A DNA stretch of 64,000 nucleotides from Liolophura sinensis. Its lineage: Eukaryota > Mollusca > Polyplacophora > Chitonida > Chitonidae. Under the pieces are notes generated by a model that was given only the letters and a program-made list of their open reading frames with translations, had not been told where the DNA came from and searched no databases. Shown here in pieces: positions 654-38,100 of this stretch. Position 1 is the stretch's first letter. Each line of letters starts with the position of its first letter. The translations under genes and the position numbers were made by a program. Where the stretch lies: assembly GCF_032854445.1 (NCBI RefSeq), contig NC_088300.1, positions 65,942,984 to 66,006,983 of the forward strand. Reading direction: 5' to 3'.

Positions 654-24379
<23,726 letters not shown>

Positions 24380-24716
24380 GTTGGCTGACTCCTCCCACTG
24401 TTATTCATTCAACTTCTCACAGGGCATATTTGTCTTTACAGCCTCAATAATCTCAGCAAATTTAACGTCTTGCTCGCTCTTCTTTCGGCACTGTCAGCCA
24501 TCGTTGTTTACAACGGTCAAAGTGTAGCAGCGTGCGTTTTGATTTGCCAATACTTGTTACTCACAAAACGTATTTCAGCTGCTTTTTAAAACGTAAAATA
24601 TATTTCAATGTTCAAAGAAGTATTGCAAATGAAAATATACTTCAATCGTTTTAACGAACAAAAATCCTTCTTTTATTTTCCTCGAATTGCGATTATCCTT
24701 TACATCCGGTTGCATC
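24380..24716. promoter_or_regulatory. bidirectional promoter region EIF2AK4 / POP7
   Basis: Only 337 bp separate the start codons of the two divergent genes, so both 5' leaders and core promoters must lie here, or EIF2AK4 and POP7 transcripts overlap. No TATA box stands out. A CCAAT pentamer lies at about 24546, and an ETS-like ACATCCGG just upstream of the POP7 ATG (about 24702-24709). Confidence 0.6.
24436..24501 (-). CDS. possible upstream ORF in the GCN2 5' leader
   Basis: An ATG at 24501 opens a 21-codon reading frame (MADSAERRASKTLNLLRLLR...) ending in TAA at 24436, 57 bp before the GCN2 start. It is not in frame with GCN2. Whether it is transcribed in the leader depends on the transcription start, which the sequence does not show. 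If so, it could modulate GCN2 translation. Confidence 0.3.
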   Translation of the reverse strand: MADSAERRASKTLNLLRLLRL

Positions 24717-25241
24717 ATGGACACAACAAGTGCACGTGTGGAGTCTGTTAACGCTGCGCCTGCATCATCAGCTGGCAAAGACATAAAACCAAAACCAGAT
24801 TTGTTTGACCCCGAAGAATATACTCTAAGGAAACGCCTGCCCCCAAGACTCCCCAAGCGCAAAAATGATATATACGTCAGTCGAAAAACGGACTTCAAAC
24901 AGCAGTTTGCTCGCTGTCAAAAACTATTCGATTCTGGTTGGAATGAAGTTTATATTCACGGTTTAGGTGCTGCAATCAACAGAGCAGTCAACCTAGCGTT
25001 ACAGCTTAAAGACAAAGGGATGGGAACTCTGGACCTGGCGGTTCACACTTCAACAGTTGAACTAACAGACGACTTCGAGCCAGAGACTGACGACCTGGAA
25101 CCTGAAAGCAGGTCTAGAAATAATTCCACGGTTCATATTAAAGTTTTTCGTCTGAAGGAATTTCAAATGGAAAAGGACGCCACACTAGAAGCTGTTGCAA
25201 GTACTCTTAAGCAAAAGCACCACATGAAAGATTCCTCCTAG
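24717..25241 (+). CDS. POP7: ribonuclease P/MRP subunit p20 (Rpp20), single exon
   Basis: Rpp20 is an Alba-family protein that, with Rpp25, binds the P3 arm of RNase P and MRP RNA in the nucleus/nucleolus. The 174-residue product has DPEEYTLRKRLPPRLPKRKN at 31-50, then DIYVSRKTDFKQQFARCQKL (51-70), EVYIHGLGAAINRAVNLALQ (77-96), the loop STVELTDDFEPETDDLEPE, and NNSTVHIKVFRLKEF near the C-terminus. All match human Rpp20 block for block, with a longer N-terminus and a short C-terminal extension (human about 140 residues). The ATG at 24717 was chosen because it is the first ATG before the conserved block. No intron is seen. A possible ATTAAA polyadenylation signal lies at 25364-25369. Confidence 0.95.
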   Translation: MDTTSARVESVNAAPASSAGKDIKPKPDLFDPEEYTLRKRLPPRLPKRKNDIYVSRKTDFKQQFARCQKLFDSGWNEVYIHGLGAAINRAVNLALQLKDKGMGTLDLAVHTSTVELTDDFEPETDDLEPESRSRNNSTVHIKVFRLKEFQMEKDATLEAVASTLKQKHHMKDSS

Positions 25242-29149: not shown

Positions 29150-32100
29150 CTGTAAAATATCAAAGGCAGTGTAAAAATTTCATACTGATACTTTTTATGC
29201 TACAGCAGACCTGAATCAGCAAAAAGCCATCTTCAGTTGTGCTACCTAACCTAATTAATGCTGTTAATTAACCTAGTTCTCATAGCTGCCACATGTAGTC
29301 TGCTTTAAGTGATTTTCACCCTCAGGGAGCTGTCATGCACACAACAACCACTGTTTCAGGAATGTTTATTATGTTGTTCAGGTATAATTTATTTGATTGT
29401 TGATCAATGCCATACTCAGGAATGTTTCACTTATATGATGGCTGACGGTTTTGTGGGTGGAGGAAATCCGAGTGCCTGGGGAAACCTTTGACAAGTTACT
29501 TTTCCATAAGTAATGTACAGGGCCAAGTTTCACACAGCGGCATACAACATTTTTTTTACAGTACATTTGTCTTACGATATTTTGTACGTCAGTTTTACTT
29601 TACTATTGTACTATATATGTGATTATCCTAAATGTACGACATCTCTGTGAAACCGGCCCTTGATACATGTATGCTTTGCTGCAAGACAAGTGGTCTTCAA
29701 CAAACGTTAAATTGTGAAAATGGCCACATGAACGTCGCCCACAGCTTATAAGCCCCACAAGCAGTTATAGCCAGGACATCTACGAATTCAGGGATTGAAC
29801 CCTCACCTGATGTGTCCTAGCGTCTGAAAAGCAACACCACAGGCACCTTTATCCACTAGACCATGGCCCGCTTCCTTTTTGACAAGGTAGTGATTTTTAT
29901 ATAATAACACTATGTTTAACACCATGAGATAATTAAAGGTTACAATTAAGGCATTCTTAAGTATTTGCTAAAATACTCAGAAGCGTTCTACTAAACATAA
30001 CATTGCTGATGAATGACGTTATCCTGTAATGCTGAACAAGAGTGAGGTCACTGTGGGAAGGTTTCCCAAAAGGTGTTCCACATGAATTTGAGCATGGTCA
30101 CATCATCAATCAATGAATGAGAAGCTTGTTCTTTGAGTTTACTAAACTGTTAAAAGACCTGATAAACAAGACTCTTGGAAAATTATGTTCACATAGTACT
30201 CTGAGAGTATTTATACATACATTCCACCTCGTCCAACATGGCTATCACTTCTGGATTTGACAGTTCATCATCATTCATAAATGAATCATTAAAATTGGAT
30301 TGTGCATCTGCAAAACAAACAAACAAACAAAATATATAATATAAAAAATCATTTGGGCTATTCTGAAATAATAGTAAAAATATGTAACAGATGTCAATCA
30401 AGTGCAATTAACATTCTGAACAACACGCAACATATGTTAAGAAAACAACATTACATAACGACACATGGACCAACCTTTCACATCACTGGAGGATGTTTTC
30501 ACCAAATTAGTAGACACCAAAGGCACCAGTTTCCCTGTCCCTCCGCCACCACTGGGTACATCTGTAATTGGTTTAAGGGCACTGGGATTGAGGGTGCTCG
30601 GTTTGGGACCTCCAGCATTGAGGGTGCCAGGTTTGTGGGCACCATGATTGAAGGGGCCAGGTTTGGGGGCCTCCAGAACTGAAGAGGCCAAGGTTTGGGG
30701 CCTACAGAATTGAGGGTGCCAGGTTTGGGGCCTCCAGAACTGAGGAGGCCAGGCTTGTGGGCACCAAGATTGCCAGCTTTACGGCCACCAGAATTGAGTA
30801 TGTCAGGTTTGGGAGCACCAAGATTAATAGTATCAGATTTGTGGGTACCATAACTGAAGGCGCCATGTTTGTAAGCACCAGGATTGGGGGCAACAGGTTT
30901 GTGGGCATCAGGTTTGGGATGGTGTGACTTGAAGTGGTACTTTCCTGGCTGGTTCTGTGTTAAAGTCTGGGGAATCTGGCTGTTAGTGAATGAAGATTTG
31001 GTTGAACATCCTGCCCCTGAAGACAAGCTACTGTCACCAAAACTCTGTGCAGAAGGATGCAGTCCAATTTTGGAAACTGTGCATGCTGTTTTTTTAGTTT
31101 CTAATGCTTTGTGCTTCCTGAAAGTGCTTTTTCGTTTCTGGCTCGGCCAGAGGAAGATGGTTCTGTTGATTCGATCTAGTATTGTTTGTCTCTTGTTTAG
31201 CACTTATCCTGGAATTGATACCAGTGTTCTGATAACCTGTGACGTTAGAGTGTTTAGTTTGCTCCATCACACCCATGTCAAACTGGCTGTCAAGGATTTC
31301 ATCTGGTTCTGCCAGCTGACACAGAAGGTCATCTGTGAGACTGGTATTAAACATGGAAGCATCGACAGAGGACCTCCGGCGTCGATTGCTTCTGGGAGAA
31401 GGTACAAAGTCGAAAGGCTTGGGTAATCCTGACATGTTTTTTTTTGTTGATTCATCACTTGTCAAAGCCTGCCCGCAGCCTTGGGGATCAACACCAGTTG
31501 GAACGTAAGTGTTGTTTCCTGCCCTGTTTAAGGTGAATGTAACTGGTTTGCTGACTGGTGCACTGTCTTTAGACGTCTTTGATATGCCTTTGTTAAAAGT
31601 TGAAAGACCACAGTATTGTACAACTGGATTGCCAACCTGTCTCAAGGCTCTCCCATTTCTTGGGCTTACAGACATGCTAGGAAATGTATTGTGTCTTTTG
31701 AAGGAGCATCCAGTGGTTGAAGGAATGTTTCTTTTATGTGGGAGTGTTTGTGAACTGGGTATCACATCATTTCTGCTAGATTCTGCAGTTGAAGCATTCC
31801 TGATGTGGCCATTATATCTACAGTTACTGTTGAAATTCACATTTTTCTTCCAGTCCTGGCTTTGATTTTTATTTCTGGTAAATGAAAGACTATTTGACCT
31901 ATCACTAGACATTATTGTTACACCAGTGGTTAGTTTCAAATTGTCACTTGTATTATCTGGTCTGTAAGGGGTAGATGTTCTAGCTCTGCTGGTACTATCC
32001 AAATCCAAATCGTGGCAAGCCTCTTCATTTCTGACAAAAGCTGCTTTCAAGGATTTGGCAGGTAAACTTTTGACACCTGATATTCCATTCTGGTTAATCT

Positions 32101-35100
32101 GGGTTGAGGTCGCACAAGGTGCATCTGAGAAACGTTTTGTTTTTATCAGTGGTGCTGATGGGGAGTTCATAAGTAATTTCCGCTTCATCAGTCGCGAAGT
32201 GGGCTGGGGCGTCGGGGAACAAACATCTAGAGTAGCTGCCTTCATCAGGAGTGACTCGTTAGCAAACAGGTCATCATCACTCCAGTCATCTTCCAGCACT
32301 TCTTCAGTAACAGTCTGCAAATTCCCAGTCACAAGGCTGTTGCTTCCTGACGTCTTATCAGCATGCAACTCCTGCTTGTGACTGGCATCCCTGAGTTCTC
32401 AAATAAATCTTTGGAAGCATTATTGGTAGGTTTAGCCTCATGGTGGACTAATGTAGTCACTTGATCTATAACTTCAGACTCTTCATAAACTGTTAACAGC
32501 TTCGGTGACCCAGGTGATACTCTGTTAATAAAAATGATAATATGTAACTGTCTGTTTATCCAACATATGGTGCACTTTTTACACCAAGATTATTGTTTTA
32601 TTTACTGAAGCCTAATACCACACTCAAGAATATTTCACTTACTCCAGGCTAGTCAGTTTCATGGGTGCTCAGAACAAACCACCAGCTTTTGATAAGTAAC
32701 TGACCAGCTTTCCCACATTTTCATTCACAGAGTGATCTCAAGTGTGTATGCCATTATTGGTGGAAGGCAGGTGGGGGTAATCTCCACCAAACTTCATGTT
32801 AGACCATCTAAACAGCCAAGCCAAGTACTCTTCAATATAGGTCAGATCTTTAACTGTTTAACCAGAGTAGCCTATAGCCACAACGTTATATTCTCAGTGT
32901 TACATTTTAATTACGATGTACATGCAAATGCAGTAACAAATAACACAGCCACTCAGATAATAAGTTAAGAGATGCTTTGTACAATTTAAACGTGACTTCA
33001 GCTGGTTCAAGTCTGTGACCTCATTAGTCAGGAGTTAATCAGCTGTATATGAGCCATAAAGGGCCACATAAAGGTTTCAAAAACAGTGGCAATGAAGATA
33101 CATTGTTCCATTACCTGTCCTGTTTAGTATTTGGGGAAATGGCCAAAGTCTCCTCTCCAGCATCTGTGAAAACAAGAAGATAATCCATATTATGGAAGCA
33201 AAACTTTTTAATTATAAACACTGCCTACAGTGTTCATAAAATGAGTTAATGATTTTCCTAATTGATTTTCAAAACACATGCTCAAGTTAAACAGGCTAAA
33301 TGCCATAAACAGGCATGAGGATTTCAGAATTGCTGTGAAACACTTTATCAGTTCCATGTACTTTTGACCTGGGAAATTTCTGCTACGCGAACCGATTTAC
33401 CTGTTTTTTTACCAATTTTGTATACGAGTATAAATTCATGCTAGTATATTGTAGGCCTATATAAGAAATCTGGCTAAATACATGCCATAAGTCTTCTTTT
33501 TTTAACATGTTAACTGCCGGCTGTGAGATATCTCGTTCCAGTATGTGTTGTCCTATATGTCACTACAAGATATCTCGTGCCAATGTGTTGTCCAATGTCA
33601 CTACGAGACATTTCGTGCCAGTAAGTGTTGTCCTATATGTCACCACAAGACATTTCGTGCCAGTATGTGTAGTCCCTTATGTCACTAAGAGATATCTCGT
33701 GCCAATGTGTTGTCCGATGTCACTACGAGACATTTCGTGCCAGTGTGTGTTGTCCTATGTCACTACGAGACATCTCGTGCCAGTATGTGTTGTCCTATAT
33801 GTCACTACGAGACATCTCGTGCCAGTATGTGTTGTCCTATATGTCACTACAAGACATCTCGTGCCAGTATGTGTTGTCCTGTGTCATTACAAGAAATCTT
33901 GTGCCAGTATGTGTTGTCCTATATGTCACTACGAGACATCTCGTGCCAGTATGTGTTGTCCTATGTCACTACGAGACATCTCGTGCCAGTACGCGTTGTC
34001 CTATATGTCACTACGAGACATTTCGTGCCAGTATGTGTTGTCCTATATGTCACTATGAGATATCACTACGAGATATCTCGTGCCAGTATGTGTTGTCCTA
34101 TATGTCACTATGAGATATCTCGTGCCAGTATGGGTTGTCCTATATGTCACTACGAGACATCTTGTGCCAGTATGTGTTGTCCTATATGTCACTGTGAGAT
34201 ATCTTGTGCCAGTATGGGTTGTCCTATATGTCACTATGAGACATCTCGTGCCAGTATGTGTTGTTCTATAGGTCACTACGAGATATCTTGTGCCAGTATG
34301 TGTTGCCCTATATGTCACTACAAGATAACTTTTACTAAAACACACGGATAATACAACTGGGAAACTTACGGCAGTTTTTACAATACAGGTACTAAACAAA
34401 AGTAATCGCTTGGACTGTATCATTTATGTTCCAACTTTTCTATTGGACCTTTCTCATGCTACATTTATGAGGGTCAGCCAGGCCTAGTACTCATTTGTTA
34501 ACCCAAAACACTGGTTTTTCGCTACAGACGTCACACATATACTAGCTTTCTTTTCTCTGACTTTCCCTAGTCGGTTTCAGTTTTTTCTTGCAGGGATACA
34601 AGCCAGGAAGTGGAATGTGTCCACAGATACTGGTATGGGAGATGGGCGACAACTTTGTGCAACAGCATCACTGAGAAGATAGAATGTAACTTGTTCTCTG
34701 AATTACATGCTCAGTCATGAGACATATTTCAATATAAAGTCCAATCTTTTCATACCACCTGAGAGTCTTACGTAGTGCGCTGTTGTAAGAGAGGATCTGG
34801 TCAGTCTATACCGGACATTCCGGCATTGTGATCATGGACTGTGTTGGGCCCTGTGACACCTTTTTGCTGTGACTCAAGAGTGTCTACCATCTCGATTTGA
34901 TGCATGTTACTGATGGTGAGAAAATCACGCTTGTCCCTCCACTTACTCATGACTACTGAATCTGAACGCCTCCATGTGTATTTGCCCTTTTTCAACTTTT
35001 TGCTTACCACCTCCTTTGGATTTTCTTTCGGCTCAAACCGTAGTATTTCGCATAGGTAAGTAGAGCGTTGAGTTAGATACTTCACCAGACCCACGGAGTT

Positions 35101-38100
35101 GTAATAATTATCTGTAAAGATTACATGGCCTTTATCTAGATAGTCAGACCTTATATCTAATACTACGGCCGCTGACTGTCCCAAGCCATCATCATCATCA
35201 ACACCCTCTCCACAATATATGCGAACCGTCAGAATCAGGCCCCTAAAACTCCTATAATTCATACAGTTTGATTCCGTATTTGCGTCTCTTGTTCTTTATA
35301 TATTGCCGAAATAACAGCCTGCCACTATTATCTGGGATAATAGATTTGCTTCATTTTCTTGTTGAAGTGATCAAAGATTGGTCACACTTTGTAAAGTTCG
35401 TCTTCAGTGGGCTGTTCCGCAAATTGCCAAAATCACAACAGTAACTGGAAACGATTTCTACTTATCACACCTCTGAAGAGGGATATTTTATGGAGTTCCA
35501 ATATACTCCAATGGAGTTCTAATGTTGAGAGTATAACTTCATTTCTACAGTGTTCGTTTCTACCCAAGAGTTTATGTGGGATGATATGTGAAGAGGTCTT
35601 CATTTATTTCGGTTTTAATATTCAAAAACTAAAATAATCTGATGGTGAATTGATTTGCATGGGGTGTCTAAATCAAGGCGTTTCAATGAAGTCAAATACT
35701 GGTGGATTTTACGGTACTTCTGTCCATACATGGGAGGAGCTGGAGTAACAAAACCCCACAAGCCACAGCTTTGTCTCGCTCCACCCCCTCTAGTGTGACC
35801 ATCACGTGTCCCTCTCGTTCTAGCTCTACCTTTGTCTGACCTTTTTGGGATTGTCTGACTCTAATGACACAGTTGGATCTCCGTCATCACTAGGCTGATT
35901 GCTGTCGTCAACACGAAATTCACTATCATGGGAGGCCATTTCAGAGGAAGGGCAACCATCAGAAACCAAGTCCGTATCAAGGCCATTGGTATCCTGGTAA
36001 GTCTCCATAAGGAGGTCGGCAACTTGTTCAGCACTCACTTGCGCCATAGCTCATGAAAATACAGACTAAAGCTGGTCGCAATGTACTGCTTGTCACTTTA
36101 GTGCAGCTATAAATAGTAATGACATAATAAATACATAATAAGCATGTAACCCTGACGTCACCAGATAACACATACCTGGCAGTGAACTTAAAAGAGTTTT
36201 TCTCTCTGCCAAATACGAGTTATCCCGTAGAGTGTTGAGTACGAGATAACTCGTACCTGAAAATGAATTAAACAGTTATGTCTCAGTGCCAGATACAAGT
36301 TATATCTTAGCTTACGCAATCATCTCTTAAAGTCATAAAATAAGCTCAGAATTGTTCTAAACTATCAAATATGAAATAATACCAAAACTTCATCCATGAT
36401 CAGGGGTTTGAATATGGACAGGTTTGGGTCATATAGTGCGGCAGTCAATGTGTTAATTATGCAACATGACTGCAATTATTCTGTGAAATTCAGACGCACA
36501 TTTTATTGGATTATTCCAGAACTGGATAGATATAATCACGATAACGATCAATCGAAAACTGAGATATAACCATGGAGCACACAATGTATATATGTGTGTC
36601 TGGTTTACGCCCTTGTTCCATTTCAGTCGCCCACGGAAACATTATTTTCTAAAGTTCTACAAATTGTCACTTGTCACATTCCTTATTTGTAGTAGCCGAT
36701 TTAGACTACGAAGCCCATGAGTATCTGTTAGCCTTCGCTGATGGGCCTTTAAACATTGTCAAAAAGCGTTCCATTGTCACTTAGCACAATGAAAGTGTCC
36801 CATTCAACCACAAAATGAAAGTACATTATCAGAGCGGTAAAATTTCGCCGTGCTGTGATATCCCAAGTGTGTGTGGCGACATGAGTGTGGAGAGTGGAGA
36901 TAATAACAACAAGAAAAAATGTAGCCTCTTTCTGGTTATTTTGACAGCCATTTTATTCAAAGGTTTGATTAAGTGTTGGCAGACGAATTGCTTCAATAAA
37001 TTTATTTATCTATTTATTTGATAACTTTAATGCTTAACTCCATACCCAAGAAGATTTAATTCAGTTAATAGGACGCCAGATACATTGCTTATTGGCAAAA
37101 GAAATGTATTTGCCCCGCCGAGCAGGCAAGTTGCCAAAGTTGGCTGCCCAACACATTTTCGGCTTGTCCCGGGCAATCGTTTAGTTACACCACTGAAATT
37201 TTGGTGTTTGGTCTTTGGTGTTTCTTGCACATGTAACTGTCATTTACTTTGTAAAATAAAAATTACCATAATCCCTCAACCTTTTTCTTTAAAGTGTATG
37301 AACTTCCACTGAATGACCGAGGTATCTGACTCCAAATTATGGAAAAAAAACCCCAAAAAACAGAAGGGCATTCTAAACTTTGTCAGTTTGAGTTATTTCC
37401 CCTACCCGAGGAGTACAATGCAGCATATGTTAAATTCGACTTCCACAACACCCTTACAATCAAACGAATCTCAGAATCCAAATTTCATATGAATCACAAC
37501 TTCCTTGATCAAGGACACTGATTGGCTTTCTATCCTTCATGTAAATCACCGGCTGTTCTACTTCCTGTCTAGCGTGGCAGATAGCATTGCAGGTTCGCTG
37601 TACACCCTGAGAGATTGAAAGAGGTCCATTTTCCGTGAGACCATGCATGAGAACAAAGTAGAAGCGACTAGCGACACCTTAGCCACAATATGAAGGTTCA
37701 CAACTCAAGTCTTCGGACAATTAACTCTGATCAATGTTTATAAAGCAGTATTGAGTGAGTAGCAAGCCCTTTTTCTGTATGAAAAGGACCTTCAGTTCCG
37801 CGAATTTTTAACCTGGGAACGGACATGGAAACGGAACGATTGTTTCTGTGAAATTCTCATGCCTGCATAAAGTATCATTCTTGGTGCTGAAATATAGTTT
37901 TCCAGCAGGATATCATAATACCTTCTAAACCGGCCTTAAAGCTCTGTTCTAGAATCATTAAAATTCTCAGAATACAGTAAATTGAGCATGTTGGTCATGG
38001 ACCAAAGTTTAGGTCATTTAGGGTGGTTTCATTTATTCATTTATTGATTTATTCATTTGATAGGTGTTTTATACTGTTCTCAAGAATATTTCACTTATAT

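Follow-up and report, generated by a model that had tools for sequence, protein, structure and literature searches.

Element ends and transposase remnants

The 64-kb stretch of DNA from the mollusc Liolophura sinensis considered here (contig NC_088300.1, positions 65,942,984 to 66,006,983; "the window" below) holds, at 33502-36456, a decayed transposon of piggyBac type with TTAA at each end. Close to its left tip stands a tandem array of some 0.8 kb, comprising 19 full units (33525-34321) built on the 14-bp palindromic box ACGAGATATCTCGT, and the same box recurs four times, in diverged form and alternating orientation, within 150 bp of the right subterminal region.

The left end, TTAACATGTTAACTGCCG (33502-33519, plus strand), and the right end, TTAACACATTGACTGCCG (36439-36456, minus strand), are identical at 15 of 18 positions, TTAA included, and all three differences are transitions. 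Beyond the TTAA the terminal inverted repeats extend for 14 bp with three mismatches, within the length of about 13-15 bp that is usual for the piggyBac superfamily, and the TTAA target site of that superfamily is present on both sides (33502-33505 and 36453-36456). Matches of this quality between end repeats are expected by chance only 0.02 times in the window, which bears out the initial annotation in its claim of a TTAA-flanked pair of matching terminal repeats 2.95 kb apart; no second copy of the element ends was found in the 64 kb. The features that define the ends and the transposase remnants lying between them are as follows.

33502-33505, no strand: left TTAA target site, read from the sequence and equal to the TTAA at 36453-36456
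33506-33519, plus strand: left terminal inverted repeat CATGTTAACTGCCG, from comparison with the right end
34443-34667, minus strand: decayed C-terminal tail, CxxC-like by eye, from reading frames and without family match
34668-34805, minus strand: transposase fragment lying downstream of the main fragment, weakly matching piggyBat 9c0f residues 422-450 (E 0.022)
34801-35295, minus strand: main transposase fragment, DDE_Tnp_1_7 positions 166-313, from PF13843 and piggyBat 9c0f matches
35826-36050, minus strand: acidic stretch, possibly from the transposase N-terminus, assigned only by its position and appearance, with no piggyBac match in Pfam
36439-36452, minus strand: right terminal inverted repeat CACATTGACTGCCG, from comparison with the left end
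36453-36456, no strand: right TTAA target site, read from the sequence

The transposase reading frames are interrupted by stops and shifts. The main fragment, an open reading frame (ORF), matches the DDE_Tnp_1_7 core of the superfamily (PF13843 in Pfam, E 2.9e-22), though only over positions 166-313 of the 349 in the profile, and its best relative of solved structure is piggyBat (9c0f, E 2.2e-14); at E ≤1 the only other solved structure matched was that of an unrelated chromatin protein (E 0.56), and no chain of Trichoplusia ni (T. ni) piggyBac appeared. These matches substantiate the transposase remnants that had been noted between the ends. The fragment next to it, without a piggyBac match in Pfam, corresponds weakly to the piggyBat residues that come after those of the main fragment. 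There is neither an intact ORF nor a complete catalytic triad: none of the transposase fragments searched against Pfam matched the profile before position 166, where we take the first catalytic residue to lie, while later conserved aspartates of the fossil align to piggyBat, our choice of the catalytic ones among them being presumptive. This incompleteness is a matter of decay in one copy, and not of any lack of piggyBac kinship.

The left-end array and the shared palindrome

Fourteen of the array units are 42 bp long, three are 40 bp and two are 38 bp, in good agreement with the initial estimate of about 19 copies of a 42-bp unit; the array begins, however, 5 bp inside the left terminal repeat (which ends at 33519, the array starting at 33525) rather than the 12 bp first given. 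Boxes flank the array on both sides, the inner one being a diverged twentieth box that is still in phase (outside the element, as good a score is reached at only 5 of 60886 positions).

33525-34321, plus strand: 42-bp tandem array of 19 full units (42/40/38 bp), from tandem-repeat analysis
34057-34069, plus strand: 13-bp local tandem duplication within the array, from tandem-repeat analysis
34320-34333, plus strand: diverged, in-phase twentieth box ACAAGATAACTTTT, closing the array on its inner side and matching at 11 of 14 positions

Mean divergence between units is 9.7%, and it shows no clear rise with the distance between them (0.086 to 0.106 at distances of 1 to 9 units). Measured against the array consensus, which is derived from the array itself and not from a known ancestor, there are 44 substitutions, 33 of them transitions, and columns containing CpG have changed disproportionately (13/76, as against 31/708 for other columns; p 0.0001). 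The palindrome box has changed more often than the rest of the unit (26/266 versus 18/518; p 0.0005) and is thus its most variable part, a difference that is reduced when CpG columns are left out (13/190 versus 18/518; p 0.06); a perfect 10-bp palindrome core survives in only 4 of the 19 units. This greater variability of the palindrome makes the array look neutral since its formation, and led us to reject the idea that selection has kept the palindrome within it. No unit-like tile was found elsewhere in the 64-kb window.

Matches to the box number 53 in the window (39 in the left array, six at the four right boxes and eight outside the element), a palindromic site often being counted once per strand in these totals, whereas 4.7 would be expected over the whole 64 kb on both strands and the maximum in 100 shuffles was 11. 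When three copies of the unit in tandem were aligned to the right-hand 397 bp of the element, the score of 39 was reached by none of 500 shuffles and by none of 153 tiles taken from the window beyond the element. The boxes responsible, at 36160, 36215, 36241 and 36295, have respectively three, one, no and three mismatches to ACGAGATAWCTCGT; the initial annotation was right that diverged forms of the unit motif are present here, but had seen them as single occurrences at about 36200-36300, where in fact there are four boxes between 36160 and 36308. As a separate observation, these boxes make up two inverted pairs within 36164-36309 (27 nt at 74% and 22 nt at 77% complementarity, with arms 16-17 nt apart), so that the right end could fold into two hairpins.

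The palindrome is also embedded in a wider arrangement that occurs at both ends. At the left tip the sequence reads CTGCCG, then 3 bp, then the first box (33523-33536, i.e. bp 18-31 from the tip, with its centre at 24.5 bp), and at the right end a six-letter motif of similar kind ends 3 bp before each box, on the strand opposite to that box's better match in the box search. Identity below is to the left tip module.

33514-33536, plus strand: left tip module, CTGCCG-GCT-palindrome, matching 18 of 20 specified positions
36160-36182, minus strand: right module A, CTGCCA-GGT-box, 19/26 identical (no gaps)
36206-36228, plus strand: right module B, CTGCCA-AAT-box, 17/26 identical
36241-36263, minus strand: right module C, TTTTCA-GGT-box, 17/26 identical, with the best box (one mismatch to the array palindrome)
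36286-36308, plus strand: right module D, GTGCCA-GAT-box, 16/26 identical

Modules A to D match 17, 19, 17 and 16 of the 20 specified positions, the best match outside the element reaching 15, although the pattern was composed from these very boxes. The spacing can be judged separately: the likeness of the right motifs to CTGCCG peaks at the 3-bp gap, with 16 of 24 letters shared as against no more than eight at any of 39 other offsets, and four places drawn at random equalled this in 0/20000 trials at the 3-bp gap and in 0/3000 at the best of 40 offsets. Under the strictest control, where each place was allowed the better of its two sides, the observed sum of 17 was equalled in 0/10000 trials at the 3-bp gap and in 1/10000 at the best of 20 gaps. 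Taken pairwise, boxes A and B give strong evidence (0/10000 random pairs), and A with C and B with D fair evidence (42/10000 and 6/10000).

Origin of the array

For the interpretation of these boxes the most useful comparison is with piggyBat of Myotis lucifugus (Nat Commun 2025, PMC11707139). Its left end carries a motif at bp 11-16, 55-60 and 99-104, followed in each case, 3 bp on, by an imperfect palindrome, the innermost being of 14 bp (bp 107-120), and transposase binding has been reported at all three sites. The present element resembles it in its TTAA ends, in its tip motif and the palindrome, centred about 25 bp from the tip, that follows after 3 bp, and in repetition at the left end, with a main period of 42 bp here and 44 bp there; piggyBat is also the nearest solved transposase. 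It differs in having about twenty boxes instead of three left-end sites, in having the motif before the first palindrome only, so that the joint repetition of motif and palindrome at 44 bp is absent, in having four palindromes at a right end that has none such in piggyBat, and in the letters of both motif and palindrome; piggyBat, moreover, is active and this element is dead. In T. ni piggyBac (PMC7351741; PMC12324416) a palindromic repeat likewise adjoins the left tip, at bp 17-33, where it is bound by a dimer of the cysteine-rich domain (PMC7351741), and the right copy lies further in, but there is one 19-bp palindromic repeat per end and no array. The location of the first palindrome would thus make it the positional equivalent of the bound piggyBac and piggyBat palindromes, and by analogy with those published ends it was probably bound by transposase.

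The account that we regard as probable is that a piggyBac-type element died, and that its own binding palindrome was expanded into the left array by slippage or unequal exchange and then decayed neutrally. The sequence of events we infer would have begun with the insertion at a TTAA of a transposon with piggyBat-like ends, which later died. Those ends would have borne putative transposase-binding modules, each consisting of a CTGCC motif, 3 bp and a 14-bp palindrome, the left tip having one module and the right subterminal region four, whose orientation alternates. Two left palindromes some 42 bp apart may then have acted as direct repeats, between which replication slippage or unequal exchange could have generated 19 units between 20 boxes; an array lying between two boxes is what such a process between neighbouring boxes would leave. 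Afterwards the array would have decayed neutrally, with CpG changes in excess. That the array grew from the element's own binding palindrome is the most likely explanation of its origin, and amplification of the element's own subterminal motif is well supported, because the same palindrome is found at both ends, tip and array are in phase, and the CTGCC-N3-palindrome geometry is seen both at the left tip and at the right end. To this extent the original proposal, that a subterminal transposase-binding motif had been amplified into a satellite, stands, binding being suggested by analogy; "satellite", however, overstates what is a 0.8-kb minisatellite in a single element.

A number of observations weigh against this account, or at least weaken it. 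CTGCC is absent at the 3-bp gap from every array unit after the first, implying that the piece amplified was the palindrome and not the whole module, so that amplification of complete motif-plus-palindrome modules was rejected; GCCA, on the other hand, directly follows the palindrome in nearly every unit. At the right end, the CTGCCG of the tip is followed by no palindrome, the palindromes of boxes A and D are poor (3/7 pairs), as is the motif of box C, and boxes C and D by themselves are weak evidence (233/10000 random pairs equal them). Boxes A to D share 18 to 20 of 26 positions with one another, so that any test counting them as four independent places exaggerates the case, and a score of 16 out of 20 on the module pattern is also reached by array and opposite-strand matches and in 1 of 10 simulations. 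With the box removed, the likeness between the unit and the right end becomes marginal (9/500 shuffles and 1/153 tiles equal it). Profile searches of the decayed tail did not detect the cysteine-rich domain expected to bind the palindrome, and no relative was found in which the ancestral state might be seen.

It might be supposed instead that selection favoured the array during the mobile life of the element, either because extra palindromes raised the avidity of transposase binding or because they served as a sink for transposase or as a self-limiting brake, in the manner of the third piggyBat left site. Site number does matter in the piggyBac superfamily, because piggyBat transposed about 6-fold more actively when the innermost motif pair was deleted from its left end (PMC11707139), and the main period here is close to the 44 bp of piggyBat (PMC11707139); more sites have been suggested to help foldback elements (PMC4079207), and changes after the death of the element would mask any earlier selection. 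It is nevertheless unlikely that the array arose in this way, given that the palindrome varies more than any other part of the unit (as it still does, at the weaker significance noted above, without CpG columns), that the perfect core persists in so few units and that the spacing wanders between 38, 40 and 42 bp; with no sign that the array was kept for binding, neutral growth is favoured over a selected brake or booster. We think it improbable, too, that the array is a minisatellite of the host or a piece of captured filler DNA which has nothing to do with transposase binding and came to land or grow beside the left tip by chance. The window does contain other tandem repeats (a 19-bp array at 3441-3925, for example), and the part of the unit clearly common to the right end is the palindrome alone; but such an origin would leave as coincidences both the phase of the array with the tip, at the position expected of a binding palindrome, and the fourfold presence of the same palindrome in the right end, whose score no outside tile attains. 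That two unrelated repeats form a chance pair of ends, and that there is no single element at all, could be argued from their differences and from a match reaching only about 14 bp beyond the TTAA, and is extremely improbable in view of the low chance expectation, the TTAA on both outer sides, the piggyBac transposase fossil lying between the ends and the boxes common to both.

A further and more speculative extension would be that a piggyBac lineage multiplied its binding palindrome into an array with a regulatory role, which soaked up transposase or obstructed the pairing of the ends, carrying self-limitation of the piggyBat type to some twenty sites, and that such arrays then seeded free satellites; we consider this doubtful.

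Other features, searches and wider relations

Elsewhere in the window, the minisatellite at 3441-3925 consists of 25.5 copies of a 19-bp unit (89% match, consensus GTACATGTCCCCTACTCTC), and two tandem 126-bp copies at 12862-13111 (96% match) are probably a recent duplication. Pfam searches with eight other ORFs of the window gave matches for one, to Rpp20 and Alba; this is the plus-strand ORF 24633-25241, which matches Rpp20 of RNase P/MRP (PF12328, E 8.6e-22) and thereby marks the DNA as eukaryotic. A minus-strand ORF at 30499-31203 spans a 30-bp tandem repeat (30587-30762), so that its predicted protein would repeat every ~10 residues, and it overlaps the ORF 31094-32398, which to our eye resembles ETAA1 and had no Pfam match at E 0.01.

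Relatives were sought in viral, prokaryote and phage collections (viral_contigs, genome_contigs and the phage set), which are silent on the source genome. No transposase relative was confirmed in them, the stretches that matched peptide patterns (4 + 71 in viral_contigs and 34 in genome_contigs) all failing in tblastn. The element end pattern occurred at nine loci of viral_contigs, in two recurring sequence contexts (two and seven loci); none of the nine had a box with ≤3 mismatches, and they were dropped as chance or unrelated matches. Exact unit patterns were found in neither viral_contigs nor genome_contigs, by their description not animal collections.

Tandem repeats inside a transposon end are known from the foldback elements Tetris (PMC4079207) and Galileo (as cited there). 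The end repeats of Galileo carry extra transposase-binding sites, those of Tetris compose longer satellite arrays, and a greater number of sites has been suggested to be helpful to foldback elements (all from PMC4079207). These elements belong to other superfamilies, however (P for Galileo, with Mutator suggested for Tetris; PMC4079207), and the Tetris repeats are of ~220 bp, lie in terminal inverted repeats and have been reported as free arrays (PMC4079207); in the element described here the two ends are not long terminal inverted repeats containing tandem repeats, the array being confined to the left and the right end holding four separate boxes. Miniature inverted-repeat transposable elements (MITEs) and Helitrons with internal tandem repeats (PMC12628747) are similar in that a short array expands inside a transposon, offering a route to satellite DNA, and differ in that the arrays there are interior and that no link to transposase-binding palindromes is drawn in the available text of that review, where neither the word piggyBac nor the word subterminal appears.

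That end repeats can give rise to tandem arrays is already known from foldback transposons, while searches of the open-licence PMC literature found no piggyBac precedent: judged from titles and the openings of abstracts, none of the articles found describes the amplification of a piggyBac end into a tandem array. Whether the inhibitory third piggyBat site arose by duplication within the transposon end was called unknown by its authors (PMC11707139), and the present element, another member of the superfamily, shows tandem multiplication of a palindrome of that third-site kind at the corresponding place. Further copies, once read in the source genome, may turn out to be a natural series with one, few and many sites, and the element would extend to piggyBac the foldback route from end repeats to tandem arrays.

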